Of a stretch of 64,000 bases of DNA, positions 6,122 to 60,699 are shown piece after piece (position 1 is the stretch's first letter; the number at the start of each line of letters is the position of its first letter). Under the pieces are notes generated by a model. It searched no databases and was not told where the DNA came from. It worked only from the letters and a program-made list of their open reading frames with translations. Where the stretch lies: NCBI GenBank assembly GCA_017430535.1, contig JAFRMR010000003.1, positions 517,480-581,479 of the forward strand. Reading direction: 5' to 3'. Source of the stretch: Clostridia bacterium (GTDB lineage Bacteria; Bacillota; Clostridia; Oscillospirales; Acutalibacteraceae). Position numbers and translations under genes: made by a program.

Positions 6122-7876
6122 TTATATATCGTCTTCGCCCTGAAGGGCATCGTAACCCCGCTCACCGGTGCGGACTTTGACAACATCATCCACTTCGTAA
6201 ATGAATATCTTGCCTTCGCCGATATTGCCGGTATAGAGCACCCTGCGGGCGGCTTCCACAACATCCTCAACGGGAACCGCAGAAACAACCATTTCAAGCT
6301 TCATCTTGGGGCTCAGGTTCACTTCTTCAATCTCAACGCCCCTGTATTTCTTGATATTGTGGCCCTTCTGAGTGCCGCAGCCCATTACATTGGTAACGGT
6401 CATACCCGTTACCCCTATATCGTTCATGGCCTCTTTAACCGCTTCGAATCTTGCGGGATTGAACACCATAACGATTTTTGTAAGCTGGGGTTTGCTCTTT
6501 GCAATATAGGATTCAACAGGCACCGCCGCTTCAACAGGCTGCATCGGGGCAAGGGGTGTAACATCCTTTGCCTCAGGCAGGATTGCTTTCATTGAAGCGG
6601 ATGTTGCAACTGCCATAGCGGGCATAAAGTCTGCATAAGCGGAAGGAAGATTATGCTCGGTGGCATCAAGGCCTTTGATTTCCTCCTCTGCAGTAACACG
6701 AAGGCCGTGGAATTTTTTGATAATGAAGAATACGGCAGTCATGGTAACTGCAGTCCAGCAGGCGATGCAGATGAAGCCGAGGGCCTGTATGCCCAGCTGG
6801 CTTACACCGCCCCCGTAAAAGAGGCCTTTGCCAACACCGTTCATTCCGGTTGAAAACAGACCTACGGCGAAGGTACCCCAGATTCCGTTGGCAAGGTGTA
6901 CAGCGCAGGCGCCCACAGGGTCGTCAATATGAAGCCTCTTATCAATAAACTCAACGGCAAGCACAACAAGAACACCTGAAACAGCGCCGATTATTATTGA
7001 ACCCAGCGCGTCGGTGCAATCACAGGATGCCGTGATTGCAACAAGGCCTGCAAGAGAGGCGTTAAGACTCATTGATACATCGGGTTTCCCATCTTTAATC
7101 CAGGTGAATATCATTGTGACAACCGTTGCAATTGAAGGAGCCAGAGTGGTGGTTACAAAAACAGAGGCAAGTATATCCGTGCTTGTTGCCGCTGCGCCGT
7201 TGAAACCATACCAGGCGAACCAGAGAATGAATACTCCCAGGGCACCTACGGTCAGGTTATGGCCGGGAATTGCTTTGGGGATTTTTTTGCCTGTTTTCTT
7301 ATCGATTTTATATTTGCCTATACGGGGGCCCAGTATTGCCGCGCCTATAAAAGCGGCTATACCGCCCACCATGTGAATTGCGGTTGAGCCGGCAAAATCG
7401 TGAAAGCCCAGCTTTGCAAGCCAGCCTTCGGGGTTCCAGACCCAGCCCGCTTCAACGGGATAAATTACCGCAGAAATTACTGCGGAATAGATGCAGTAGG
7501 ATGAGAATTTTGTTCTCTCTGCCATAGCGCCGGAAACTATGGTGGCGGCAGTGGCGCAGAACACAAGATTGAATACGAAATTTGACCAGTCAAAATGGGC
7601 GTAATCGGTAAACACGCCCATAGTGGGCATACCGATAAATCCTCCCAGGCACTCCTCGCCCATCATAAGACCGAAACCCAGGGCAACAAACATTACTGCG
7701 CCTATACAGAAATCCATAAGGTTTTTCATAATGATGTTGCCTGCGTTTTTTGCCCTTGTGAATCCGCTTTCAACCATTGCGAATCCGCACTGCATGAAAA
7801 ATACGAGAGCCGTGCCTATTAAAAACCAGACACCGAAAACGCTGTCGGTAACAGCTGTAAAAATTGAATCAGTCAT
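6122..7876 (-). CDS. amt: Ammonium channel Amt fused to a C-terminal PII signalling domain
   Basis: This 584-residue protein joins an Amt/Rh ammonium channel (about residues 1-400, roughly eleven hydrophobic helices) to a PII (GlnB/GlnK-type) domain at about residues 466-576. The pore histidine pair is visible as His168 in FAGSTAIHMVGG and His327 in AVHLANGIWG. In the PII part, the T-loop KGHNIKKYRGVEIEE keeps the tyrosine equivalent to Tyr46 (Tyr511) but has Ile516 where the uridylylated Tyr51 of enterobacterial PII would be. ATP/2-oxoglutarate-type PII motifs follow (GNIGEGKIFIYEV). A linker of about 60 residues (405-465), rich in Ala and Pro, joins the two. It follows glnA by 76 bases with a strong hairpin between them. 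No separate glnK is present. Confidence 0.93.
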   Translation of the reverse strand: MTDSIFTAVTDSVFGVWFLIGTALVFFMQCGFAMVESGFTRAKNAGNIIMKNLMDFCIGAVMFVALGFGLMMGEECLGGFIGMPTMGVFTDYAHFDWSNFVFNLVFCATAATIVSGAMAERTKFSSYCIYSAVISAVIYPVEAGWVWNPEGWLAKLGFHDFAGSTAIHMVGGIAAFIGAAILGPRIGKYKIDKKTGKKIPKAIPGHNLTVGALGVFILWFAWYGFNGAAATSTDILASVFVTTTLAPSIATVVTMIFTWIKDGKPDVSMSLNASLAGLVAITASCDCTDALGSIIIGAVSGVLVVLAVEFIDKRLHIDDPVGACAVHLANGIWGTFAVGLFSTGMNGVGKGLFYGGGVSQLGIQALGFICIACWTAVTMTAVFFIIKKFHGLRVTAEEEIKGLDATEHNLPSAYADFMPAMAVATSASMKAILPEAKDVTPLAPMQPVEAAVPVESYIAKSKPQLTKIVMVFNPARFEAVKEAMNDIGVTGMTVTNVMGCGTQKGHNIKKYRGVEIEEVNLSPKMKLEMVVSAVPVEDVVEAARRVLYTGNIGEGKIFIYEVDDVVKVRTGERGYDALQGEDDI

Positions 7877-7952: not shown

Positions 7953-9296
7953 TCAATAGTTAATCATATATTTATCAATTTCCCATTGACTTACCTTTGT
8001 TCTGTAATCATCCCACTCGGCTTTCTTGCCCTTGATATAGTTATCAAAGGCCTGCTCACCGATGACTTCCTTGATGAAGGGATCTTTTTCCGCTTCCTCA
8101 ATGGCTTCTTCCAGTGTGCCGGGCAGGCATTCTATGCCTTCCTTTGCCAGCTCTTCATCTGAAAGCACAAATACATTCTTATCATAAGCGGGCTTGGGAA
8201 CAAGGCCTCTCTTGATGCCGTCAAGGCCGGCGGCAAGGCAAAGCGCCATTTCAAGATAGGGGTTGCAGGTGGGGTCAGGGCAGCGCAGCTCAACCCTGGT
8301 GCCTTTGCCTCTGCTGGCGGGAATCCTTACAAGGCAGGAGCGGTTTGAGGTGCTCCATACAAGATAACTGGGGGCCTCATAGCCGGGCACAAGGCGCTTG
8401 TATGAGTTGACGGTGGGGTTTGAAAACACAGCCATACCTTTGATATGGTCCATAATACCTGCGATAAATGCGTAGGCTTCTTTTGAAAGGCCCAGCTCAC
8501 CGTCGGGATCGTCAAATATATTCTTGCCGGTTTTGATATCGTAAAGGCTCATATTGGTGTGCATACCGCTGCCGTTGATGCCGTAAATGGGTTTCGGCAT
8601 AAAGGTAGCGTGCAGGCCGTGCTTTGTGGCATAGGTTTTAACCACATGCTTGAAGGTCATAACTCTGTCCGCGGTGGTAAGTCCGTCACCGAACTGGAAG
8701 TCAATCTCGTGCTGACCTTCTGCAACCTCGTGGTGGGAGGCCTCAATTGTGTAGCCCATTTTTTCAAGAGCAAGGCAGATATCTCTGCGGCAGTTTTCGC
8801 CGTGATCAATGGGGTTCAGGTCAAAGTAGCCCGCCTCATCCCCTGTCTGCAGAGTGGGCTTGCCGCTTTCATCCAGCTTGAAAAGGAAAAACTCGCATTC
8901 GGGGCCTACATTGAAGCCGTAGCCCTCGGCAGCAGCTTCATCAATAACTCTTTTGAATATATTTCTGGGGTCGCCGTCAAAGGGGGTAACATTATCTGCC
9001 TTATAGGCGGAACAGATAAGACGGCCGGTCTGTATCTCGTGGTGCTTTCTCCAGGGAACGATTGCCCAGGAATCAAGGTCGGGATGAAGGTACATATCGC
9101 TCTCATCAATTCTTGCAAAGCCGTCAATTGAGGAGCCGTCAAACATACAGTCATTATCAAGGGCTTTTTCAAGCTGAGATACGGTAACGGCAATATTTTT
9201 CATAATACCGAACAAATCGGTAAACTGCAGGCGGATAAATTCAACATTGTTTTCCAGTGCGCTCTTAAGTATCTCTTCTTTTGTGATTTTGCTCAT
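7953..9296 (-). CDS. glnA: Glutamine synthetase type I (GSI-alpha)
   Basis: GlnA condenses glutamate and ammonia to glutamine with ATP. The product is 447 residues, the usual size of Firmicutes GSI-alpha. Visible motifs are GPECEFFLF, the ATP-site NGSGMHTNMS, and SNRSCLVRIPASRGKGTRVELR. Near residue 55, DGSSIDGFARIDESDM keeps the arginine that in Bacillus GS mediates feedback inhibition. I chose the ATG before SKITKEE because GGAGG lies about nine bases upstream; an in-frame GTG seven codons earlier has no such site. It has its own strong promoter and a long leader with two terminators and a small ORF, so it is probably controlled by attenuation. It leads the glnA-amt-nadE-glutamate synthase-purF operon. 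Confidence 0.96.
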   Translation of the reverse strand: MSKITKEEILKSALENNVEFIRLQFTDLFGIMKNIAVTVSQLEKALDNDCMFDGSSIDGFARIDESDMYLHPDLDSWAIVPWRKHHEIQTGRLICSAYKADNVTPFDGDPRNIFKRVIDEAAAEGYGFNVGPECEFFLFKLDESGKPTLQTGDEAGYFDLNPIDHGENCRRDICLALEKMGYTIEASHHEVAEGQHEIDFQFGDGLTTADRVMTFKHVVKTYATKHGLHATFMPKPIYGINGSGMHTNMSLYDIKTGKNIFDDPDGELGLSKEAYAFIAGIMDHIKGMAVFSNPTVNSYKRLVPGYEAPSYLVWSTSNRSCLVRIPASRGKGTRVELRCPDPTCNPYLEMALCLAAGLDGIKRGLVPKPAYDKNVFVLSDEELAKEGIECLPGTLEEAIEEAEKDPFIKEVIGEQAFDNYIKGKKAEWDDYRTKVSQWEIDKYMINY

Positions 9297-9332
9297 AATT
9301 CTGTCCTCCGTAATCATTTTTATTTTTCGGGT

Positions 9333-9422
9333 TCAGCCCCGGGGAGATGTATCTGAGTTTCTGAATTCTGTGGGCGGTTTTTCAATGTAAAGGTAATTGC
9401 CCCGGATATTGTTATTATCCAT
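9333..9422 (-). CDS. Possible 29-residue small protein/leader peptide upstream of glnA
   Basis: A short ORF (MDNNNIRGNYLYIEKPPTEF..., 29 codons plus stop) lies between the second leader terminator and glnA. It starts with ATG eight bases after AAGGGGG, as good a ribosome site as the real genes here have. It ends 36 bases before the glnA start. It is hydrophilic, with no membrane segment and no run of a regulatory amino acid (no Gln run), so a classical leader-peptide attenuator is not indicated. I do not recognise it. It could be a small protein acting on glutamine synthetase, or a chance ORF in the leader. Confidence 0.45.
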   Translation of the reverse strand: MDNNNIRGNYLYIEKPPTEFRNSDTSPRG

Positions 9423-9436
9423 TGTATCAGCCCCCT

Positions 9437-9479
9437 TAAAACAAAAAAGCGGCGCTTCTCCCTTATGAGAAAAGCGCCG
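9437..9479 (-). terminator. Second intrinsic terminator in glnA leader
   Basis: CGGCGC plus TTCTC pairs with GAGAA plus GCGCCG, with a 2-base bulge and the six-base loop ATAAGG. It is followed directly by CTTTTTTGTTTT. It lies between the promoter and glnA, so it must be read through for glnA expression. Confidence 0.8.
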
Positions 9480-9492
9480 TTGCTTTCTGATG

Positions 9493-9547
9493 AAATAAAA
9501 AATGAAGAAGGCGTCAATGAGCCGTAACTCAAAGACGCCTTTGCCTT
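9493..9547 (-). promoter_or_regulatory. glnA leader attenuator: AAAGGC hexaloop hairpin competing with terminator
   Basis: The predicted transcript starts near 9549. Its first bases can form AAGGC-[AAAGGC]-GTCTT, a 5-bp stem with one G-U pair and a six-base loop with A at position 1 and G at position 4. The same bases also form the 5' arm of a terminator, AAGGCGTC/GACGCCTT, with an inner TGAG/CTCA stem and the tail CTTCATTTTTTATTT. The two folds exclude each other. The loop matches the A1/G4 hexaloop rule for RNAs bound by ANTAR antiterminators, and an ANTAR gene lies 8 kb away in the same cluster. Confidence 0.6.
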
Positions 9548-9555
9548 ATGTGTGT

Positions 9556-9584
9556 ATTTTACTCCCCTATTATCCCGGTGTCAA
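9556..9584 (-). promoter_or_regulatory. Sigma-A promoter of glnA
   Basis: TTGACA, 17 bases, then TAAAAT, on the minus strand. The spacing is ideal and the -35 box perfect. The predicted start is about seven bases after the -10 box, just upstream of the attenuator. Confidence 0.85.
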
Positions 9585-9680
9585 TTGATTTTTGCTTATT
9601 CCGGAAAAATCGGGATATATGTATATTCTCACAGTTTAATGATGAAAACTTTTTGTGCAGGATGATAGTAACTCAGGGCT

Positions 9681-11213
9681 TTATTCCCACTCAACAGTTG
9701 CCGGGGGCTTTGCTGTGATATCATAAACCACCCTGCCGATTGACCGTACTTCGTTGGTTATGCGGTTTGAGGCCGATGCAAGCACATCAAAGGGAACCCT
9801 TGACCAGTCAGCTGTCATAAAATCATCGGTGGTAACCGCTCTTAAAGCGAGGGTATAGCCGTAGGTGCCGGCATCGCCCATAACGCCCACGGTGCGGCAG
9901 TTGGTAAGCACAGTGAAATACTGGTTGATTTCACCGGTAAGCCCTGCGTTTGCGATTTCTTCCCTGAATATCGCATCGGATTCTCTTAAAATATCAAGCT
10001 TCTCTTTTGTTATTTCGCCGATTACCCTTATTGCAAGGCCCGGGCCCGGGAAAGGCTGGCGGCTTACGAGGTCTTCGGGTATGCCCAGCTTTCTGCCTGC
10101 GGCTCTCACTTCATCCTTGAACAGATCCCTCAGGGGCTCCACTATTTTTTCAAAGCGGATAACATCCGGCAGGCCGCCCACATTGTGGTGGCTCTTTATT
10201 ACAGCCGCATCCCCTTTGCCGCTTTCAATCACATCCGGGTAGATTGTGCCCTGAACAAGCACATCCACCTTGCCTATATCTTTGGCAACATCTTCAAACA
10301 CGCGGATAAATTCCGCGCCGATAATCTTTCTTTTCTCTTCGGGTTTTGTAACCCCTGCGAGTTTTGAGAGGAACCTGTCCTCGGCGTTTATTCTTATGAG
10401 GTTAAGGCCCATCTCCTCTTTCATAACCCGCTCAACCATATCGCCTTCGTTCTTCCTGAGAAGACCGTGGTCAACAAACACGCAGATAAGGTTGCTGCCG
10501 ATTGCTTTATGGAGAAGCACCGCGGCAACAGAGGAATCCACACCGCCTGATAGAGCGCAGAGCACCTTTTTGCCTGCAAGCTCCTCTCTGTATTTATTAA
10601 CAGAGGTTTCAATGAAATCATCCGTAGTCCAGTCGCCGGCACAGCTGCAGATATTCATAACAAAATTTTCAATCATCTTTCTGCCGTACTGTGTATGGGT
10701 TACCTCCGGGTGGAACTGAACGCCGTAAATCTTTTTTTCTTTATTGCAGAGCGCCGCGCAGGGGCAGTTATCCGTAAAAGCGATTATTTCAAACCCTGCG
10801 GGGGGAGTTTTAACATAATCGGTGTGGCTCATCCAGCAGATGCCGGTTTCGGGAACACCGTCAAAAAGAGGACTTTCCTTTACCGTAAGCCCGGTTTTGC
10901 CGTATTCGCTTATGCCGACCGCACTGCAGATTTCACCGCCGCCCATATATGCTATAAGCTGACAGCCGTAACAGATGCCGAGAACCGGCACCCCGGCATC
11001 AAGAATCTCCGCCGGATAATGGGGAGAGCTTTCATCATAAACGCTGTTTGGTCCGCCGGTGAAAATAACGCCCTTGTAACCTGCGGCCTTTATTTCGGCC
11101 GGAGTTATTTTATTGTAAGGGATAATCTCGGCAAATACGCTGAGCTCCCGCACACGGCGGGCAATAAGCTGATTATACTGACCGCCGAAATCAAGCACAA
11201 GAATCTTTTCCAT
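9681..11213 (-). CDS. guaA: GMP synthase (glutamine-hydrolysing)
   Basis: GuaA aminates XMP to GMP with glutamine ammonia and ATP. The product is 510 residues, the normal length. The class I amidotransferase triad is in GICYGCQL (Cys near residue 83) and HPEVTHT. The ATP pyrophosphatase P-loop is [14 protein letters not shown] near residue 220. The C-terminal dimerisation domain ends with [11 protein letters not shown], the canonical GuaA end. It starts with ATG nine bases after the carB stop, with AAGGAG overlapping that stop, so it is co-translated with the carbamoyl phosphate synthase genes. No clear terminator follows, so transcription may reach the glnA leader. Confidence 0.97.
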
Positions 11214-11222
11214 AACCGCTCC

Positions 11223-14200
11223 TTATTTCCGCGCAAAATCAATGGGCTCAACGGAGAAATTCAGCTCCTCAAGCACATCAAGGAACACTCTGACCGTATC
11301 AAGGGATGTGAACATTGTGATTCCGTTCTCTATGGCGGTGCTTCTGATTGCCTCGCCGTCCTCATAATGAACACCGGAGAGCACTGCTCTGGTATTTATC
11401 ACATAGCTCACATTGCCGCTGCGTATGGCATCCAGTATCTCCCTGCTGCCTTCGCTTAGCTTTTTCCTGACCCTTGTGTGAATACCTGCGTTTTTAAGGT
11501 ACTCTGCCGTAAGGGAGGTTGCCTCAATGCTGAAGCCCATATCATAAAATCTTTTCACAAGAGGAATACCCTCTATTTTATCTTCATCCGCAAGGGACAC
11601 AATAACAGTGCCGTGGTTCAGGAGCTTGATACCCGCAGAGAGGAATGCTTTATACATAGCCCTGTGGATTTTTTCATCAAAGCCGATTGCCTCGCCTGTG
11701 GACTTCATCTCAGGCGAAAGATAGGAATCCATACCGTGAAGCTTTGAAAACGAGAATGCGGGCACTTTGACATAATACTTGGCGGATTTATCGGAATACT
11801 CTCCAGTAAGGCCCTGCTCCTTAAGGGATTTGCCCATCATAACAAGCAGAGCTATATCCGCAATGGGTTTCCCCGTGGCTTTTGAAAGGAAGGGCACGGT
11901 TCTTGACGAACGGGGGTTTACCTCAATGATATATACATTTTCATCCTTATCCACAATAAACTGGATATTGAAAAGCCCCACTATGCCTATGCCTTTGCCC
12001 AGGCGGTTTGTATAGTCAATTATGGTATCCCTGACTTTTGCGGAAATACTGTAGGTGGGATAAACGCTGATTGAGTCGCCGGAGTGCACGCCGGTTCTTT
12101 CCACCAGCTCCATAATACCGGGTATGAACACATCTTTGCCGTCGCATACGGCGTCAACCTCAAGCTCTTTGCCTCTTATGTATTTATCAACCAGCACGGG
12201 CTTGTCTTCGTCAATATGAACGGCGGTTTCAAGATAGTGCCTGAGGTCCTTTTCCTTAGAAACAATCTGCATTGCCCTGCCGCCCAGCACAAATGAGGGG
12301 CGCACAAGCACAGGGTAGCCGATTTCTTCCGCTGCTTTTACACCGGCCTCGATATTTGTTACCGCCGTGCCTTTGGGGCGGGGAATATCAAGCTCGGTAA
12401 GGAGCCTGTCAAAGGAATCACGGTTCTCCGCCTTATCTATGGCCTCGCAGTCCGTGCCCAGTATCTTTACACCGTAATCTGCAAGGGGCCCGGCAAGGTT
12501 GATTGCCGTCTGACCGCCCAGGGTAACAATTACGCCCACAGGCTGTTCAAATTCAATGATATTCAGTGTTTCTTCCACGGTAAGGGGCTCAAAATAGAGC
12601 TTATCCGATGTGGTGTAATCCGTGGAAACGGTTTCAGGGTTATTGTTTATGATTATGGCGTCATAGCCGTTTTCTTTTATGGTTTTAACCGCGTGGACCG
12701 TTGAATAGTCAAATTCTATTCCCTGACCTATTCTTATGGGGCCGGAGCCCAGCACGATTATCTTTTGCCTGCCGGAATCAAGAGACTCGTTTTCATACTC
12801 GTATGTTGAATAAAAATAGGGAACATAGCTCTCAAATTCCGAAGCGCAGGTATCAATCATTTTGTAAACGGGGATTATGCCGTGCTGCTTTCTTTCGGCG
12901 CGGATTTCCTGCTCGGTCATACCCCATATACGGGCAATTTCCCTGTCGGAAAAGCCCATTCTTTTTGCTGTGTAAAGCTCTTTTTCGTTTTTATTCTCTT
13001 TAAGGCGCTTTTCCTCCTGTGTAATCTTTCTGATTTTGGTGAGGAAAAACATATCGATTTTTGTTCTTGCGGAAATCTCTTCCGGTTTAACATTTCGCCT
13101 GAGGAGCTCCGCAATGGCGTAGATTCTGTCATCCGTTCCCTTTTCGGTATATTCAAGGAGACTTTCGGTTGATTCTTCAGCAAACTTCGGCATATACAGA
13201 TGATATGTGCCGGTTTCAAGGGAGCGGACTGCTTTGAGCAGGCTTTCCTCAAAGGTTCTGCCTATGCTCATTGTTTCGCCCGTTGCCTTCATCTGGGTGC
13301 TCAGCCGGTTATCGGCGGAGGTGAACTTATCAAAGGGGAACCGGGGCATCTTGGTTACAACATAGTCAGGGGCCGGCTCAAATGAGGCAAGGGTATTTGC
13401 AAGATGAATCTCATCAAGGCGCATGCCTACGCTTATTTTGGCGGATACCCTGGCAATAGGATAGCCGCTGGCCTTTGAGGCCAGAGCGGATGAACGGGAA
13501 ACCCTGGGATTTACCTCAATAAGATAATATTTGAATGAATTGGGATCAAGGGCAAACTGAACATTGCAGCCGCCCTCTATTTCAAGGGCGCGGATGATTT
13601 TCAGGGCGCTGTCCCTGAGCATGTGATATTCTTTGTTTGTAAGAGTCTGTGAGGGGCAGACAACTATGGAATCCCCGGTGTGTATGCCTACGGGGTCAAG
13701 GTTTTCCATATTGCAGACGGTGATTGCAGTATCTGCGGAATCACGGATAACTTCATATTCAATCTCTTTGAAACCCTTAACGCTCTTTTCAATAAGGACC
13801 TGATGAACCGGTGACAGCTTAAAGGCGTTTTTGGCAATCTCTTTAAGCTCCTCTTCATTATCGGCAAAGCCGCCGCCTGTGCCGCCAAGGGTGAAGGCGG
13901 GGCGCAGAACTACGGGGTAGCCGATTTCTTCTGCTGCCTGCACGGCCTCTTCAATACCGTAGGTGATTTCTGACGGGATAACGGGCTCGCCGATTTCCAT
14001 ACAGAGCTCTTTGAAAAGCTCCCTGTCCTCGGCTTTCTCTATGCTCTCGCTTTTTGTGCCAAGAAGCTCTGTGCCGCATTCCTTAAGAACACCTGTTTTT
14101 TCAAGCTCAACGGCAAGGTTAAGCCCGGTCTGGCCGCCGATACCGGGAAGGATGGCATCCGGCCGCTCTTTTCTGATTATTTTTGCAGCAAACTCCGCAG

Positions 14201-14408
14201 TGAGGGGCTCCATATATATTCTGTCCGCAATAACTGAATCTGTCATAATGGTGGCGGGGTTGGAGTTGCAGAGGATAACCTCATAGCCCTCTTCACGCAG
14301 GGCAAGGCAGGCCTGGGTGCCGGCATAGTCAAACTCCGCCGCCTGGCCGATTACTATGGGACCCGAGCCGATAACCAGTATTCTTTTTATGTCAGTTCTT
14401 TTTGGCAT
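11223..14408 (-). CDS. carB: Carbamoyl-phosphate synthase large subunit
   Basis: CarB makes carbamoyl phosphate from bicarbonate, ammonia and two ATP, for pyrimidines and arginine. The product is about 1,061 residues with the two homologous halves expected. Each starts with a VLGSGP/VIGSGP-type motif ([20 protein letters not shown] and [18 protein letters not shown]) and contains an ATP-grasp domain ([16 protein letters not shown] and [16 protein letters not shown]). The C-terminal ~130 residues are the MGS-like regulatory domain where UMP or ornithine would bind. I chose the ATG giving [10 protein letters not shown], which overlaps the end of carA by 17 bases; an upstream TTG is possible but weaker. 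Confidence 0.96.
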
Positions 14409-15498
14409 AGATTCCGCCGCCTTCAATCATATTTATAAAGCAATCAAACAGATAGCCGCTGTCCTGAGGGCCGGGGGCGCTTTCGGGATGGTACTGAACG
14501 CTGAAAGCTCTTTCGCTTTCACACATAACCCCTTCAATGGTGTCATCAAGCAGATTTATGTGGGTTACGGTAAGCGGTGTGTTTTTTACGCTTTCAGGTG
14601 AAACTGCATAGGAGTGGTTCTGTGAAGTGATTTCCGTTTTGCCGGTAATTATATTCTTAACGGGATGATTCCCGCCCCGGTGGCCGAATTTAAGCTTATA
14701 GGTTTCGGCTCCGCAGGCAAGTGACAGCACCTGATGCCCGAGGCAGATTCCGAATATGGGATATCTGCCGATAAGCTTCTTTACCGTCTGAATCAGCTCG
14801 CCTACATCCGTGGGGTCTCCGGGGCCGTTTGAAATAAACACACCATCGGGGTTGATGGCTTCAATCTCCGCTGCAGCCGTGTTCCAGGGTACGCTTGTTA
14901 CGCTGCAGCCGCGAGCGTTCAGTGAGCGGATTATATTCTGCTTTATCCCGCAGTCAAAGGCGGCTATATGAAGCCGGTGATCCGGGACCTCAAATTCCCT
15001 GATATCCGTGTGGGAAACCCGGCTCACCGCATCGGTGGGCAGGGAAATACTTTTAAGCTTCTCGGCGCATACATCAGCCGGAGTATCCGCGCCGGTAATC
15101 AGCACTTTACAGCTTCCCCTGTCACGGATTCTCCTTGTTATCGCTCTTGTATCCACACCGCTTATACCGGCAATATCATATTTTTTCATCACATTGCCCA
15201 GGGTATCGGCGCTGCGGAAATTTGATGGCTCATCGTTATACTCCCTGACTATAAGCGCCCCGATTGTGGGCCTGTCGGTTTCATAGTCATCAAGGGCCAT
15301 ACCGTAGTTGCCGATAAGGGGATAGGTCATACATACCGCCTGATCGGTGTAGGACGGGTCACTGAGGATTTCCTGATAACCTACGGGAGATGTATTGAAC
15401 ACAAGCTCAAGCACCTTTTCGCTTCCGGAGCCGAAGGACCGGCCGTAGAAAGCCGTGCCGTCTTCAAAAACCAGTTTTTTGTTTTCATCCGTAATCAT
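14392..15498 (-). CDS. carA: Carbamoyl-phosphate synthase small (glutaminase) subunit
   Basis: CarA hydrolyses glutamine and tunnels ammonia to CarB. The product is 368 residues, normal for the family. The N-terminal CPSase domain has [18 protein letters not shown] and [15 protein letters not shown]. The class I amidotransferase domain has [23 protein letters not shown] with the nucleophilic Cys, and [11 protein letters not shown] with the catalytic His/Glu. The ribosome site AAAGGG sits inside a small GNRA-loop hairpin, which may limit translation. The gene overlaps carB and lies 95 bases downstream of gdhA. Confidence 0.96.
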
Positions 15499-15506
15499 AA
15501 TTTCTG

Positions 15507-15552
15507 CCCTTTCGGGGGAAACCCGCAGAATAACTGAATCCTGCGGGTTTCC
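15507..15552 (-). promoter_or_regulatory. Strong hairpin plus ribosome-site hairpin upstream of carA
   Basis: A perfect 12-bp stem (GGAAACCCGCAG/CTGCGGGTTTCC) with a 12-base loop is followed at once by CCC-GAAA-GGG, a tetraloop hairpin whose 3' side is the carA ribosome site. No U-run follows, so this is not a simple terminator. It could insulate carA from gdhA or control carA translation. Confidence 0.5.
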
Positions 15553-15593
15553 GAAGTATTAAATGAGTCACAAAATGAGCGGAGATGTCTTAA

Positions 15594-16949
<1,356 letters not shown>

Positions 16950-16965
16950 TTACCGGGATTTCCCG

Positions 16966-17035
16966 GAAATATAAAAAAGGCGCACTACCCCCTTGGTAAT
17001 GCGCCTTTGCATTGTGAATTCAATCTTCGCTGATT
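16966..17035 (-). promoter_or_regulatory. gdhA attenuator with two candidate ANTAR hexaloop hairpins
   Basis: Two small hairpins lie in a row: AATC-[AGCGAA]-GATT (17035-17022, overlapping the 3' end of the ANTAR gene) and AATGC-[AAAGGC]-GCATT (17013-16998), eight bases apart. Both loops are six bases with A1 and G4, the known ANTAR-target rule. The second loop and its 3' arm form the 5' arm of a 14-bp terminator (AAAGGCGCATTACC with GGTAGTGCGCCTTT) followed by TTTATATTT, so binding of the second hairpin would prevent termination. A short CCGGG-AAAT-CCCGG hairpin follows near the gdhA ribosome site. This is the best-formed example in the window. Confidence 0.65.
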
Positions 17036-17601
17036 ATGTTTTCGGCAATTTCTTTCCTTGTGTGCCGGGAATCCATAGCTTCCTTTTCAATATACCGGTG
17101 TGCTTCCGGCTCGGTCATCCTCATTTTTTCCATAAGGATGAACTTTGCCCTGCTCACAAGTTTGATCTCTTCAAGTTTGTCCTGAAGCTTCTGCGCTTTC
17201 TTCTCACCGTTGAGAAGCCGTGCGCTTGTTGCCGTTATAAGCTTGATTGCCGTATAAAAATCTTTTTGCGATACCGGCTTTGCTATGGTAAGCACACCGG
17301 CCGCTTCAACCTTTGCGCAGGTCAGGTCATATAAATCGCTCCTGGCCGTTATCATAACCCCGGAATGGGATGAGGCCGTTGCGTCAACGGCAAAGTCACT
17401 CCCGAATTCATCCGGCAGAGGTGGATCTATAATGAGGATATCATAAGGGCTCCTCAGCATTTTGCGCTTTGCCTCGCCGGCGCTCAGAGCTGAATCAACA
17501 GGCCTGTAAACAGAAGCGTCGAGCATAGCCGACAGCAAAGCGATATTATGCTTTTTGCCCGATACAATAAGCACACTGAAGCATCTTTTTGCAGGCGGCA
17601 T
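17020..17601 (-). CDS. ANTAR-domain RNA-binding antiterminator (NitR-like response regulator)
   Basis: This 193-residue protein has a receiver-like N-terminal domain (about 8-125) and a C-terminal ANTAR domain (about 138-190, KLVSRAKFILMEKMRMTEPEAHRYI), the module that binds paired hexaloop hairpins in mRNA leaders and prevents termination. In the receiver, Asp59 (LIIDPP), Thr85 and Lys108 (AKP) match the phosphorylation triad, but the acidic pair that binds Mg2+ is replaced by Ser14-Gly15. Phosphorylation is therefore uncertain. A coiled-coil-like stretch (LLNGEKKAQKLQDKLEEIK) links the domains, as in EutV and AmiR. It sits between glnA2 and gdhA. A similar ANTAR gene beside glnA is known as nitR in a solventogenic Clostridium. 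No partner histidine kinase is in the window. Confidence 0.88.
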   Translation of the reverse strand: MPPAKRCFSVLIVSGKKHNIALLSAMLDASVYRPVDSALSAGEAKRKMLRSPYDILIIDPPLPDEFGSDFAVDATASSHSGVMITARSDLYDLTCAKVEAAGVLTIAKPVSQKDFYTAIKLITATSARLLNGEKKAQKLQDKLEEIKLVSRAKFILMEKMRMTEPEAHRYIEKEAMDSRHTRKEIAENIISED

Positions 17602-17646
17602 ACCCGTTCTCCCTTCCTCCGTAATTGAGCTTTTGCACTTAACTTA

Positions 17647-18855
17647 TCAGAGTGTGTAAGTGTCAATAACTCTCTGCGGTAAAATCTTCTTCACAAATTC
17701 GCTGCTTCTTGCAATGGCATTTGCCTCTTCAAGGCTGCCGGGCAGCGTATCTATGCCGCTTAAAATATCTTCAGTTGTGTTATACAGGTTAAGGTCGGTG
17801 GGGGTGGGGGCCTGCATCTTTGCATCTATACCCTCAATACCGGCGTAAATAAGCAGTGCGCAGGAAATATACGGGTTGGCAAGAGCATCGGGGGACCTGA
17901 GCTCCATTCTGCGCCGATCTCCGCTTCCGGCGGGAATTCTTATAAGCTGGGAGCGGTTTTCCTTTGACCAGGTGATGTATTTCGGAGCTTTCTTGACGCC
18001 CAGGCGTTTGTATGAATCCTCCGAAGGGTTGAGGAATGCGGTTATTTCTTTGATTCTGTTAATAACCCCGGCCATAAAACTCTCAAGGTAATCTTCGGAA
18101 TCGCGGGATTTAACCGAAATATTTATATGCACTCCGTTTCCGCTTTCATGGGGCAGAGGCTTCGGGGAAAAGTCCGCATAAAGCCCGTATTGCTCCGCAA
18201 TGGTGGAAACCACCGATTTGAAAGTTACGGAATTATCCGCTGCAGAAAGTGCGTCGCTGTATTTGAAATCAATCTCGTGCTGACCGGGGCCCTCCTCGTG
18301 ATGTGAACTCTCCGGGAGTATGCCCATCTCGGAAAGGGTAAGGCAGATTTCGCGGCGGACATTCACGCCCCTGTCTTCCGGGGCAATATCCATATAACCG
18401 GCCCTGTCATGTACCTGTTTTGTGGGGTAGCCCTCCTCATCTGTTCTGAAAAGGTAAAACTCGTGCTCAGGCCCGAAATATACTTCAATCCCTTTGGATT
18501 CGGCATATTTTACCGCTTCCTTAAGCATATTTCTGCAATCCATTTCAAAAGGTCTGCCGTCAGGGTAGCGGATATCGCAATACATCCTCACAACGCTGCC
18601 CTGGGACGGACGCCAGGGAAGAACCGAAAGAGTGGAGGCATCCGGGAAAAGGAAAAGGTCGCTTTTTTCTTCGCTGCCGAAACCTTTTACGGCGGAGGCA
18701 TCTATGGCTATTCCCGTTTCAAATGCACGGTCCAGTTCCGTTGTCATTATTGATATGTTTTTCTGCTTGCCGAATACATCGCAGAACGCGAGTCTGATAA
18801 ATGTTACATCTTCCTGCTCAATGTAGTCCCTGACATCCTGAATGGTAAGTTTCAT
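17647..18855 (-). CDS. Divergent glutamine synthetase-family protein beside the ANTAR gene
   Basis: The product has 402 residues, shorter than the 447-residue GlnA elsewhere in this cluster. Glutamine synthetase motifs are kept: GPEHEFYLF, the ATP-site GNGVHINIS, and ENRSQLIRIPAGSGDRRRMELRSPD. The region equivalent to the GlnA feedback loop reads ASAVKGFGSEEKSDL, with glycine replacing the arginine used in feedback inhibition. It may be a catalytically active isoform, a sensor, or a partner of the ANTAR protein 45 bases downstream. The start is the ATG with AAGGAG nine bases upstream; longer in-frame starts would fall inside the leader terminator. It has its own promoter and attenuator. Confidence 0.85.
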   Translation of the reverse strand: MKLTIQDVRDYIEQEDVTFIRLAFCDVFGKQKNISIMTTELDRAFETGIAIDASAVKGFGSEEKSDLFLFPDASTLSVLPWRPSQGSVVRMYCDIRYPDGRPFEMDCRNMLKEAVKYAESKGIEVYFGPEHEFYLFRTDEEGYPTKQVHDRAGYMDIAPEDRGVNVRREICLTLSEMGILPESSHHEEGPGQHEIDFKYSDALSAADNSVTFKSVVSTIAEQYGLYADFSPKPLPHESGNGVHINISVKSRDSEDYLESFMAGVINRIKEITAFLNPSEDSYKRLGVKKAPKYITWSKENRSQLIRIPAGSGDRRRMELRSPDALANPYISCALLIYAGIEGIDAKMQAPTPTDLNLYNTTEDILSGIDTLPGSLEEANAIARSSEFVKKILPQRVIDTYTL

Positions 18856-18870
18856 ATCATCCGGCTCCTT

Positions 18871-18930
18871 AAAAGATAAAAGGGCACCCATTGATTGCAA
18901 GAAGCCCGTAATCAATGAACGCCTTTGTTC
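18871..18930 (-). promoter_or_regulatory. glnA2 leader attenuator with AAAGGC hexaloop hairpin
   Basis: At the very start of the predicted transcript, GAAC-[AAAGGC]-GTTC forms a 4-bp hairpin with an A1/G4 six-base loop. Its loop and 3' arm are also the 5' arm of a long terminator stem (18926-18910 with 18896-18879, one bulged C, several G-U pairs, 13-base loop) followed by TTTATCTTTT. The element AAAGGCGT, seven bases, TTACGG is shared exactly with the glnA leader. Confidence 0.6.
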
Positions 18931-18937
18931 GTGTGAA

Positions 18938-18966
18938 ATTATATTCTTTTTTTTCCTTTAAGTCAA
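18938..18966 (-). promoter_or_regulatory. Sigma-A promoter of glnA2-ANTAR(-gdhA-carAB-guaA)
   Basis: TTGACT, 17 bases, TATAAT on the minus strand. The predicted start is about one to two bases before the hexaloop hairpin. It is divergent from the asnB promoter, with about 115 bases between the two -35 boxes. Confidence 0.85.
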
Positions 18967-19079
18967 TGATTTTTATACTGCATTAACCGATTTCTTAACT
19001 TTGCACAAAAGAAACACAACTTTTGCAGGCCCGGATTGTAAAAATTGCAAAAATCACCGTATTCGGGTGAAATATACAC

Positions 19080-19108
19080 TTGACAATGAAATTTTGCGGT
19101 GTTAAAAT
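19080..19108 (+). promoter_or_regulatory. Sigma-A promoter of asnB
   Basis: TTGACA, 17 bases, TAAAAT, the same two boxes and spacing as the glnA promoter. The stretch between this and the divergent glnA2 promoter is AT-rich with no clear operator, though it contains several TTTTG and CAAAA words. Confidence 0.85.
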
Positions 19109-19120
19109 TGCAGCATATTA

Positions 19121-19165
19121 AGGCAAAGGTGCCCGTACCGGGTGCCTTTGCCTCTTTTTTATTTT
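19121..19165 (+). promoter_or_regulatory. asnB leader attenuator with AAAGGT hexaloop
   Basis: A 9-bp outer stem (AGGCAAAGG/CCTTTGCCT) with an inner CCCG/CGGG helix is followed by CTTTTTTATTTT, an intrinsic terminator 30 bases before the asnB start codon. Overlapping its 5' arm, GGC-[AAAGGT]-GCC can form a 3-bp hairpin with a six-base loop carrying A1 and G4. This is the shortest stem of the four leaders. Confidence 0.55.
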
Positions 19166-19194: not shown

Positions 19195-20772
19195 ATGTGC
19201 TCCGTAGTGGGATTGCTTTCATACCCCGAGGATTATGAAGAGTTTAAAAAAGCATTCGAAAAAACAAAATCAAGGGGACCGGATGATACAAAAGTCATAA
19301 AAGCGGGCGACGGCCTTCTGGGCTTTCACCGCCTTGCCATAATGGACCTTGAATCAACCGGTATGCAGCCCTTTGAGCTGGGCGGCAATAAGCTTGTGTG
19401 CAACGGAGAAATATACGGCTTCCGCAAAATCAAAAAAGAGCTTGAAAAAGAATACTCTTTCACCAGTGATTCCGATTGCGAAATACTGCTGCCCATGTAT
19501 GAAAAATACGGCTTTGATATGTTCGCGATGCTGGATGCGGAATATGCCCTTGTGATTTATGACGGCGAAAAAAACTGCCTGATTGCCGCGAGAGACCCGA
19601 TTGGCATAAGGCCCCTGTTCTATGCTTATGATAAAAACGGAAGCATAATGTTTGCCAGCGAAGCGAAAAACCTTGTGGGACTCAGCGATAAAATAATGCC
19701 CTTCCCTCCCGGTCACTACTATGACGGCGAAAAATTCGTATGCTACAACGATATTGCAAAAGTTGACGAATACATTGACGGCAGCCTTGAAGAAATATGC
19801 GGCAACATTCACGACAAGCTGGTTGCAGGCATAGAAAAACGCCTTGATGCAGATGCTCCCGTAGGTTTCCTGCTCAGCGGCGGCCTTGACAGCTCCCTTG
19901 TGTGTGCCGTTTCCGCAAAACTTCTGAGCAAGCCCATAAGAACCTTTGCAATAGGTATGAGCGAGGATGCCATTGACCTTAAATATGCAAAGGAAGTTGC
20001 GGAATATATAGGCAGCGACCACAGGGAAATAATCATAACGGCAGACGATGTTATCGGCTCGCTTGAAGATGTTATAGCAGCCCTTGGTACATTTGATATA
20101 ACCACCGTAAGGGCCAGTATGGGTATGTACCTTATATGCAAGGCGATTCACGAAACCACCGATGTAAGGGTACTGCTTACGGGTGAAATATCCGACGAGC
20201 TTTTCGGCTATAAATACACGGATTTTGCCCCGGATGCCGAAGCATTCCAGAAAGAGGCGCAGAAGAGAATACGCGAGCTTTATATGTATGATGTTCTCAG
20301 GGCCGACAGATGTATTTCCGTTCACTCAATGGAGGCAAGGGTTCCCTTCGGCGACCTTGATTTTGTGAAATATGTAATGTCAATAAACCCCGAAAAGAAA
20401 ATGAACATTTACAATAAAGGCAAATACCTTCTCCGCCACGCCTTTGAAGGCAACTATCTGCCGGAGAGCATCCTGATGCGCGAAAAGGCGGCTTTTTCCG
20501 ATGCAGTGGGACATTCCATGGTGGATTACCTCAAAGAGTATGCGGAAAAGAAATATTCCGATGAAGAGTTTGAAATAAAGTCGGCAAAATACACTCACGC
20601 AAAGCCATTCACCAAAGAATCTCTGCTTTACAGAGAGATTTTTGAAAAGTATTACCCCGGTCAGGGCGAAATGATAAAAGATTTCTGGATGCCCAACAAA
20701 GACTGGGAAGGCTGCAATGTAAACGACCCCTCCGCCAGAGTTCTTTCAAACTACGGCGACAGCGGTAAATAA
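19195..20772 (+). CDS. asnB: Asparagine synthase (glutamine-hydrolysing)
   Basis: AsnB transfers glutamine nitrogen to aspartate with ATP. The product is 525 residues, close to the compact AsnB of E. coli. Cys2 (MCSVVG) is the class II amidotransferase nucleophile, and KSRGPDD, GFHRLAIMDL and LVCNGEIYGF are the usual glutaminase motifs. The synthetase domain has the pyrophosphatase loop LLSGGLDSSLVCAV near residue 230, and LTGEISDELFGYKYTDFAP. The ATG has GAGGAGG upstream. It has its own promoter and attenuator, and runs divergently from glnA2 and towards pyrG. Confidence 0.96.
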   Translation: MCSVVGLLSYPEDYEEFKKAFEKTKSRGPDDTKVIKAGDGLLGFHRLAIMDLESTGMQPFELGGNKLVCNGEIYGFRKIKKELEKEYSFTSDSDCEILLPMYEKYGFDMFAMLDAEYALVIYDGEKNCLIAARDPIGIRPLFYAYDKNGSIMFASEAKNLVGLSDKIMPFPPGHYYDGEKFVCYNDIAKVDEYIDGSLEEICGNIHDKLVAGIEKRLDADAPVGFLLSGGLDSSLVCAVSAKLLSKPIRTFAIGMSEDAIDLKYAKEVAEYIGSDHREIIITADDVIGSLEDVIAALGTFDITTVRASMGMYLICKAIHETTDVRVLLTGEISDELFGYKYTDFAPDAEAFQKEAQKRIRELYMYDVLRADRCISVHSMEARVPFGDLDFVKYVMSINPEKKMNIYNKGKYLLRHAFEGNYLPESILMREKAAFSDAVGHSMVDYLKEYAEKKYSDEEFEIKSAKYTHAKPFTKESLLYREIFEKYYPGQGEMIKDFWMPNKDWEGCNVNDPSARVLSNYGDSGK

Positions 20773-60577: not shown

Positions 60578-60602
60578 GCCCGGATAATCCGGGCTTTTTT
60601 TA
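60578..60602 (+). terminator. Intrinsic terminator after GH4 gene
   Basis: GCCCGGA-TAA-TCCGGGC, flanked by A-run and T-run, ending in TTTTTTT. It works in either direction. Confidence 0.92.
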
Positions 60603-60603
60603 A

Positions 60604-60699
60604 TGATATCCGCTTGGTAAGCGGGTGATATCCCTTCGGGATGATATCTGCTGCGCAGATGATATCCGCCTTTCGGCGGGTTATAGGTCGCTTCGCTCC
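60604..60699. repeat. Tandem array of different hairpins joined by constant TGATATC
   Basis: TGATATC occurs four times (60604, 60626, 60642, 60660), 22, 16 and 18 bases apart. Each copy is followed by a different short hairpin: CCGCTT-GGT-AAGCGG, TCCC-TTC-GGGA, TCTGC-TGC-GCAGA, CCGCC-TTTC-GGCGG. The stems differ but always pair. The array ends with TTATA and GGTCGCTTCGCTCC, a unit also seen at 24527-24540. It lies between convergent genes and codes for nothing obvious. Confidence 0.75.

Follow-up and report, generated by a model that had tools for sequence, protein, structure and literature searches.

Probable single-hexaloop attenuators at the promoters of a clostridial nitrogen-gene cluster and their proposed control by an ANTAR protein

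We analysed a 64,000-nucleotide stretch of the genome of a Clostridia bacterium (the window; GenBank assembly GCA_017430535.1, contig JAFRMR010000003.1), in which genes of nitrogen assimilation lie together with the gene of an ANTAR protein. Small hairpins with six-base loops precede glnA, glnA2, gdhA and asnB, and each overlaps a predicted intrinsic terminator. We consider it very likely that the units act as attenuators under the control of the ANTAR protein encoded among these genes, and that the promoter-proximal units use one hexaloop. Readthrough under ANTAR control is deduced from the overlap of the two structures, their covariation, their co-occurrence with ANTAR genes and the known ANTAR mechanism. 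The single-hexaloop arrangement at RNA starts, which recurs in many clostridia and is unlike the two-hairpin version described so far, is provisionally new: promoter-proximal single-hexaloop attenuators were not found described in the literature searched, mostly open papers without supplements.

The window belongs to one contig of a genome of 2.41 Mb in 27 contigs that is 96.88% complete. According to Pfam, the gene cluster comprises amt-PII, glnA, guaA, carB, carA, gdhA, the ANTAR gene, glnA2, asnB and pyrG; no other ANTAR gene was found in the genome. A first-pass annotation had listed hexaloop hairpins before glnA, glnA2, gdhA and asnB, an ANTAR gene amid the cluster and, for each hairpin, an intrinsic terminator whose 5′ arm it overlaps, and all of this is confirmed (Table 1). 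We found a fifth unit that it had not listed, a second one before glnA, which starts 44 nucleotides after the first hairpin, has its own terminator and stands in the same tandem order in the congener L034. All five loops carry A at position 1 and G at position 4, the loop rule of ANTAR targets, on stems of at least 3 base pairs (exactly 3 for asnB). At glnA, glnA2 and asnB, where the annotation had placed the hairpin at the extreme 5′ end of the RNA, it does start only 8, 7 and 13 nucleotides after the −10 element; each of these promoters has a 17-nucleotide spacer, and, on the inferred starts, the first nucleotide of the hairpin would fall roughly between +2 and +8. The loop and the 3′ arm of the hexaloop stem also make the 5′ arm of the terminator in these three leaders. 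The gdhA unit sits within the glnA2-ANTAR-gdhA operon. Alone, the hexaloop hairpins of the window are weak (−1.6 to −4.2 kcal/mol), and as terminators the five units have predicted minimum free energies of −17.9 to −26.6 kcal/mol, so termination should be the default.

These features suggest a mechanism. RNA polymerase would start at a strong promoter, recognised here by its sequence, and by default the nascent RNA would fold into the predicted terminator within its first tens of nucleotides. When nitrogen is short, activated ANTAR protein would bind and stabilise the A1..G4 hexaloop hairpin, which would then occupy the terminator 5′ arm, block the terminator and let glnA-amt, glnA2-ANTAR-gdhA and asnB be read through. 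Promoter-proximal units would act with one hexaloop at the RNA 5′ end and no upstream recruitment hairpin, and glnA would have two such gates in series. The sign of the response (on at nitrogen limitation) is borrowed from NitR, a clostridial ANTAR protein whose gene presumably adjoins glnA in Clostridium saccharobutylicum.

We compared the window with 120 fetched ANTAR loci (121 sequences), centred on ANTAR genes, so that the sample favours neighbours of these genes. Five of the 120 loci duplicate another locus, leaving 116 unique ANTAR proteins of 121, and identical promoters were counted once. Forty of the fetched stretches were drawn mostly from the top of 96 matching family genomes. Among the 80 of 562 relatives kept, the closest named ones by ANTAR protein are clostridial metagenome-assembled genomes (75–79% identity), one of them from goat omasum. 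Promoters with at most one mismatch to TTGACA/TATAAT gave 202 distinct sites, and at most two mismatches gave 766. A hexaloop hairpin was counted if its stem had at least 4 base pairs and it started at most 16 nucleotides after the −10 element. The set of promoter-adjacent units has 98 members, 82 of them with a detected terminator, and does not contain the window asnB unit with its 3-base-pair stem.

The hexaloop unit is strongly non-random in the relatives. A hexaloop hairpin lies near 117 of the 202 near-consensus promoters, and 77 of the 117 loops are of the A1..G4 class, while the next of the 16 classes has 7; with the looser promoters the figures are 107 of 311 and 23. The register of the loop is exact. 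When motifs of the form AANGGY were collected 6–42 nucleotides after the 202 promoters, with no selection on stems, 65 of 100 formed the loop of a stem with 4 or more base pairs, and a loop shifted by one had such a stem in 0 and 1 of 100, a loop of 5 or 7 in 0 or 1. Loops of 8 (49) and nested loops of 4 nucleotides (11) score because they reuse the same stem. Eight control motifs, each with the small number of 7 to 37 occurrences, had a stem in 0, 0, 0, 0, 6, 11, 11 and 30% of cases; the last is AAGNGY, which overlaps the true motif. These counts bear on the notion that the units are constitutive promoter-proximal terminators in which ANTAR plays no role and AAAGGC is common as the usual start of a terminator, A-A-A-G-G-C. 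AAAGGC..GCCTTT is indeed a natural terminator composition, and the folding energies favour the terminator, but composition cannot explain the exact stem register, and variation in the loop is matched in the terminator arm and the units co-occur with ANTAR genes (both below); we judge this explanation extremely unlikely.

Both competing helices covary. The terminator could be parsed in 81 units; in 77, 78 and 73 of them it also pairs positions 4, 5 and 6 of the loop, and position 5 changes together with its terminator partner (GC 34, AU 9, GU 9). Besides an alignment of 52 of the 98 units (A2), we built an alignment of 52 units (A3) from 49 of 70 picked units and three further window units. In A3, 92.2% of the cells of the terminator helix are paired (73.3% in shuffles) and its covariation is 0.635 (0.272); for the hexaloop helix the corresponding values are 87.5% (65.8%) and 0.705 (0.284). 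For both helices, none of 500 shuffles reaches the observed paired cells or covariation, and slid versions score far lower. Most A3 rows had been chosen for having the four inner pairs of the hexaloop stem and a terminator that is strong, so that these figures lean towards the two structures; the unselected outer hexaloop pairs, columns 4–19 and 3–20, are paired in 40 and 26 of the 52 rows. Both-side pair changes in the terminator helix are barely distinctive (25 of 500 shuffles as high). The 3′ arm of the hexaloop stem has two pairing partners to satisfy. Conservation of the hexaloop stems in homologous leaders, whose absence was one of two outcomes that the first-pass annotation had named as refuting its proposal, is seen as an exact register, as compensatory changes and as a constant place: the hairpin lies at most 8 nucleotides from the inferred +1 in 96 of the 98 promoter-proximal units, with a median of 3.

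The annotation had also proposed to search related genomes with a leader model, and in such a search promoter-plus-hexaloop matches do co-occur with ANTAR genes. Model R1 describes promoter plus hexaloop, and because the promoter is included, weak matches can be promoter-only. In the family (200 genomes, 115 with and 85 without ANTAR by Pfam), R1 matches at E ≤ 0.01 occur in 97 of 115 ANTAR-positive and 13 of 85 ANTAR-negative genomes, and at E ≤ 0.001 in 71 and 3. In the class outside the family (285 genomes, 140 and 145), 65 of 140 and 10 of 145 have a match at E ≤ 0.003. Fisher values of 1e-23 (family) and 6e-15 (class) overstate the association, since species are not independent; 135 and 181 genera are involved. 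These tables assume that the R1 and ANTAR searches drew the same genomes, which have the same handles and totals, and G083 is counted as ANTAR-negative although a truncated ANTAR-protein match is present. In 26 newly fetched loci from outside the family, the unit lies 5–11 nucleotides after the −10 element in all and a terminator was detected in 25; the presence of the unit is partly circular here, as the model contains it. The congener G145, of the same genus, has neither an ANTAR nor an R1 match. It is without GlnA2 as well (its best match, at 38%, is the ordinary glnA), and by reading, its glnA promoter leads directly to the ribosome site; neither a terminator nor an A1..G4 hexaloop on a stem of at least 4 base pairs was found in this leader. 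Two R2 matches of this genome at E ≤ 2 (0.0178 and 0.197) have no such hexaloop at the match site.

It is conceivable that another RNA-binding protein or an antisense RNA reads the hexaloop and that the ANTAR gene is a mere neighbour. Antisense RNA control of ammonium assimilation has been reported for C. saccharobutylicum, according to a review, and the ten class genomes just mentioned have an R1 match without an ANTAR match. But the A1..G4 loop follows the rule for ANTAR targets, the protein retains most of the ANTAR contact residues (see below) and the association spans many genera, all of which makes another reader very unlikely.

Within the window's own genome, R1 and the unit model R2 found no further promoter-adjacent unit. 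Both models are limited in sensitivity (the window asnB unit is itself not among the R2 matches), so that the detectable regulon is this cluster. R1 gives 13 matches at E ≤ 1, three of them the window promoters; when the other 10 were read and scanned, none had a C-G-closed AANG hexaloop. One of them (L160) has a G-C-closed AAAGAA hexaloop about 30 nucleotides after the −10 element, in what is, by its motif, probably a T-box leader; in three (L158, L159 and L165) the A1..G4 hexaloops lie on the opposite strand or at some distance from the R1 match. R2 gives 9 matches at E ≤ 2, of which four are window units. Among the rest, C24:63733 (E 0.0028) is a plain terminator with AAAGGC but no hexaloop stem; C21:183526 (E 0.53) has CAGC[AAAGGC]GCTG, antisense within an open reading frame of 421 amino acids and without a terminator; L206 has a 3-base-pair hexaloop on the other strand, and L204 and L205 have none at the match. 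The plain pattern CAAAGGYG is too loose for such a search, with 435 matches against 320 for the reversed-pattern control.

The main alternative to a single hexaloop is that the units are ordinary two-hairpin ANTAR targets whose first hairpin (P1) was missed, either because transcripts start further upstream or because P1 is unusual. Known targets have two hairpins, and in EutV targets deletion of P1 ablated induction, linkers of 14 or 3 nucleotides drastically reduced it (PMC3369931) and a 20-nucleotide extension abolished antitermination in vitro (PMC8934654). Among the promoter-proximal units, however, an A1..G4 hexaloop lies between the inferred +1 and the unit in 0 of 98. The tandem second units, which start 36–173 nucleotides after the first hairpin, each over its own terminator, have an A1..G4 hexaloop 2–25 nucleotides upstream in 0 of 14, although RNA lies upstream of them; the second glnA unit of the window is one in which none was found. 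For glnA, glnA2 and asnB, the annotation's statement that no second upstream hexaloop is evident holds, as the inferred starts leave no room for one. For gdhA it is doubtful: TAATC[AGCGAA]GATTG lies 7 nucleotides upstream, with a shuffle match rate of 0.019 for stems of at least 4 base pairs, so this unit of the window may belong to the ordinary two-hairpin targets. Three related gdhA units were compared: L034 has a different P1 candidate, L075 and L076 have none. Four of the 40 units not listed with a promoter have an upstream hexaloop, where 1.3 are expected, so that some units may be dual, against a uniform single-hairpin picture. For the promoter-proximal units we consider a missed first hairpin very unlikely. 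The suggestion of a single-hairpin or 5′-end variant therefore stands for glnA, glnA2, asnB and the tandem second units, with the reservation about gdhA.

The ANTAR domain of the window protein scores 65.8 bits against PF03861 (curated cut-off 27.3). Its closest solved relatives are Rv1626, EutV, AmiR and NasR, with profile matches to Rv1626 (1s8n, E 1.8e-23) and EutV (6wsh, E 3e-13). We aligned 32 of 41 available ANTAR sequences (A1). Across 116 distinct homologues, basic residues stand at the positions of EutV Lys143 and Lys147 in 115 and 114, and Met stands at that of Met172 in 116; the equivalent of Tyr164 is His in 110 of 116, as it is in AmiR. The receiver domain scores 29.7 bits, just below the Pfam cut-off of 30.2. 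The window protein keeps Asp59, Thr85 and Lys108, but the acidic pair of receivers is absent from it and from the homologues, in which the phosphoacceptor position is Asn in 97 and Asp in 10 of 116 and the Thr/Ser position is Thr in 1. Given the missing acidic pair and the prevalence of Asn at the acceptor position, phosphorelay control appears unlikely for this ANTAR family and doubtful for its window member.

A homologue of GlnA2 is encoded directly upstream of the ANTAR gene, on the same strand, in all 117 loci that could be judged; three further loci have too little sequence. GlnA2 falls below the NCBIfam GlnA equivalog cut-off (351.4 against 429.15 bits). The flap Glu has a catalytic role in glutamine synthetase, and at this position the window GlnA2 has Lys, as do 77 of 116 homologues. 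We do not claim that GlnA2 is a dead enzyme; the flap Glu is kept in 20 of the 116. The gene order suggests that GlnA2 is probably the sensor, reading the nitrogen state and gating the ANTAR protein in the way that AmiC gates AmiR.

Most of the units, 89 of the 98, precede nitrogen-assimilation or glutamine/ammonia-using enzymes, in loci centred on ANTAR genes and with one member scanned per cluster where Pfam was used. They are glutamine synthetase III (33), glutamine synthetase I/GlnA2 (19), class II glutamine amidotransferase (15), pyrG (8), gdhA (7), asnA (2) and, with one unit each, gltB, asnB, guaA, amt and glmS. The fifteen amidotransferase-domain proteins (for example L035 15674–16930; one member was scanned) are perhaps a split glutamate synthase subunit.

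Several points weigh against control of these units by the ANTAR protein through a single hexaloop. Transcript starts in all units are inferred from promoter consensus, and binding and readthrough by the ANTAR protein are predicted. According to the EutV studies, EutV requires both hairpins (PMC3369931, PMC8934654), and single sites are expected only where the time limit set by the transcribing polymerase is absent (PMC8934654). The equivalent of EutV Arg142 is not basic (Ile in the window protein). A stem of at least 4 base pairs is missing from 35 of the 100 AANGGY motifs, only 63 of the 121 sequences gave a promoter-adjacent unit (identical copies counted once), and 16 of the 98 units have no detected terminator. 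The units used for covariation were selected for a stem of at least 4 base pairs and mostly for a predicted terminator, so that part of the pairing is due to selection, and of the five measures taken on the hexaloop helix, two do not rise above shuffles (430 of 500 shuffles as high for both-side pair changes and 234 for further pair types). An R1 match is absent from 18 of 115 ANTAR-positive genomes in the family and 75 of 140 outside it, and G004 has a clear unit without an ANTAR match. Nine units precede something else (purA, 2; purC, 1; an AAA ATPase, 1; unidentified short open reading frames, 2; no open reading frame, 3), and the choice of loci around ANTAR genes favours ANTAR neighbours among the downstream genes. 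With these points taken into account, the interpretation of the cluster as an ANTAR regulon is supported.

Dual-hexaloop ANTAR control of nitrogen genes is established (PMC3369931). The window units resemble the eutP/EutV, nasF/NasR and amiE/AmiR systems in their short stem, their A1/G4 hexaloop, the antiterminator hairpin over an intrinsic terminator and their nitrogen genes. They differ from the eut targets, described with P1 and P2, a linker of 5–12 nucleotides and a need for both, in that each promoter-proximal unit has a lone hexaloop near +1 to +8, in some cases repeated in series 36–173 nucleotides apart. NitR of C. saccharobutylicum is likewise an ANTAR protein acting on nitrogen-assimilation genes; it is said to antiterminate glutamine synthetase/glutamate synthase (GS/GOGAT) genes under nitrogen limitation, and its RNA target is not described in the available part of that source (PMC6316151). 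A putative ligand-binding partner for the ANTAR protein resembles AmiC-AmiR, where the AmiR receiver cannot be phosphorylated and AmiC controls AmiR (PMC8934654). Glutamine synthetase as a nitrogen sensor for a regulator is also seen in the control of TnrA in Bacillus subtilis, but the regulator here is predicted to bind RNA rather than DNA, and GlnA2 is a second, altered glutamine synthetase. NasS-NasT is another pair in which an ANTAR protein has a ligand-binding partner; the candidate partner here differs from AmiC and NasS in being glutamine-synthetase-like, and the partnership is suggested by gene order alone.

More tentatively, the arrangement could amount to a Clostridia-wide form of nitrogen control, with an ANTAR protein that needs no phosphorylation and is gated by GlnA2, a partner from which the flap Glu has mostly disappeared. 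It would act on a single hexaloop formed from the first 20–30 nucleotides, with no recruitment hairpin, with two gates in series in some lineages and, in one family, a structured small RNA under the same gate; we give this extended version somewhat less than an even chance. The accepted model of ANTAR control calls for two hairpins. The 2022 EutV structure paper proposes that the first hairpin recruits the protein in time and asks about the importance of single-hexaloop sites, and PMC8934654 treats the single hexaloop as the minimal binding motif and single sites as worth looking for. The units described here give many natural examples of such attenuators with one hexaloop, placed at strong promoters of central nitrogen genes; the polymerase time limit holds there, and direct assays are feasible. 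If our reading is correct, the recruitment-hairpin model would become testable, nitrogen control in many uncultured clostridia would be explained, and a glutamine-synthetase-like protein would be the sensor of an RNA-binding regulator.

Table 1. Features of the glnA–asnB region, in window coordinates
Feature	Position	Strand	Evidence or remark
glnA promoter TTGACA-17-TAAAAT	9556–9584	−	consensus; R1 match E 1.5e-5
glnA unit 1, hexaloop AAGGC[AAAGGC]GTCTT 9532–9547, over intrinsic terminator	9495–9553	−	R2 match E 3.2e-6
glnA unit 2, hexaloop GAAAGC[AACGGC]GCTTTT 9470–9487, over second terminator	9438–9490	−	R2 match E 3.1e-4
glnA, type I glutamine synthetase	7953–9317	−	listed open reading frame; by reading, translation probably starts near 9296, downstream of GGAGG
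ammonium transporter fused to C-terminal P-II domain, directly downstream of glnA	6122–7876	−	Pfam
glnA2 operon promoter TTGACT-17-TATAAT	18938–18966	−	R1 match E 5.3e-4
glnA2 unit, hexaloop GAAC[AAAGGC]GTTC 18917–18930, over terminator	18871–18934	−	R2 match E 6.3e-4
glnA2, glutamine-synthetase-like protein, Lys at flap Glu position, proposed sensor	17647–18855	−	
ANTAR protein, degenerate receiver and ANTAR domain	17020–17601	−	
gdhA unit inside operon, hexaloop AATGC[AAAGGC]GCATT 16998–17013, over terminator	16967–17018	−	R2 match E 4.8e-4
possible P1 hexaloop TAATC[AGCGAA]GATTG, in ANTAR gene 3′ end, 7 nucleotides before gdhA hexaloop	17021–17036	−	shuffle rate 0.019
gdhA, glutamate dehydrogenase	15594–16934	−	Pfam
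asnB promoter TTGACA-17-TAAAAT	19080–19108	+	R1 match E 0.046
asnB unit, hexaloop GGC[AAAGGT]GCC 19122–19133, within 15-base-pair terminator	19115–19165	+	3-base-pair stem; not among R2 matches
asnB, asparagine synthase	19195–20772	+	Pfam

In six genomes of another Clostridia family (L221, L222, L223, L233, L235 and L236), a conserved stretch comes after the promoter and unit, at about 1500–1750 in the orientation of the locus. It is probably non-coding, shows long-range pairing and contains another GC-rich hairpin (z −9.5 in L221). Unconserved open reading frames of 106–107 amino acids overlap this stretch in two loci, and its best Rfam match reaches 30.1 bits against a cut-off of 44.2. The stretch may be a small RNA that the unit controls in the same way.

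A hairpin upstream of carA was considered as a further unit of the window and rejected, as by reading it has neither a U-tract nor a hexaloop. Between the glnA attenuators and glnA lies a small open reading frame with a ribosome site (MDNNNIRGNYLYIEKPPTEF..., window 9350–9437, minus strand). Its N-terminus is conserved in the congener L034/L074; one motif from it was sought in all fetched loci, with matches only in the genome itself and one congener. Rfam finds no gathering match in the leaders, and between 9300 and 19300 only a match to SmY (E 0.77) below its cut-off. The one gathering match in the window is a Gut-1 RNA at 60601–60670 on the plus strand (52.1 against a gathering score of 50), amid repeated hairpins that contain GATATC.

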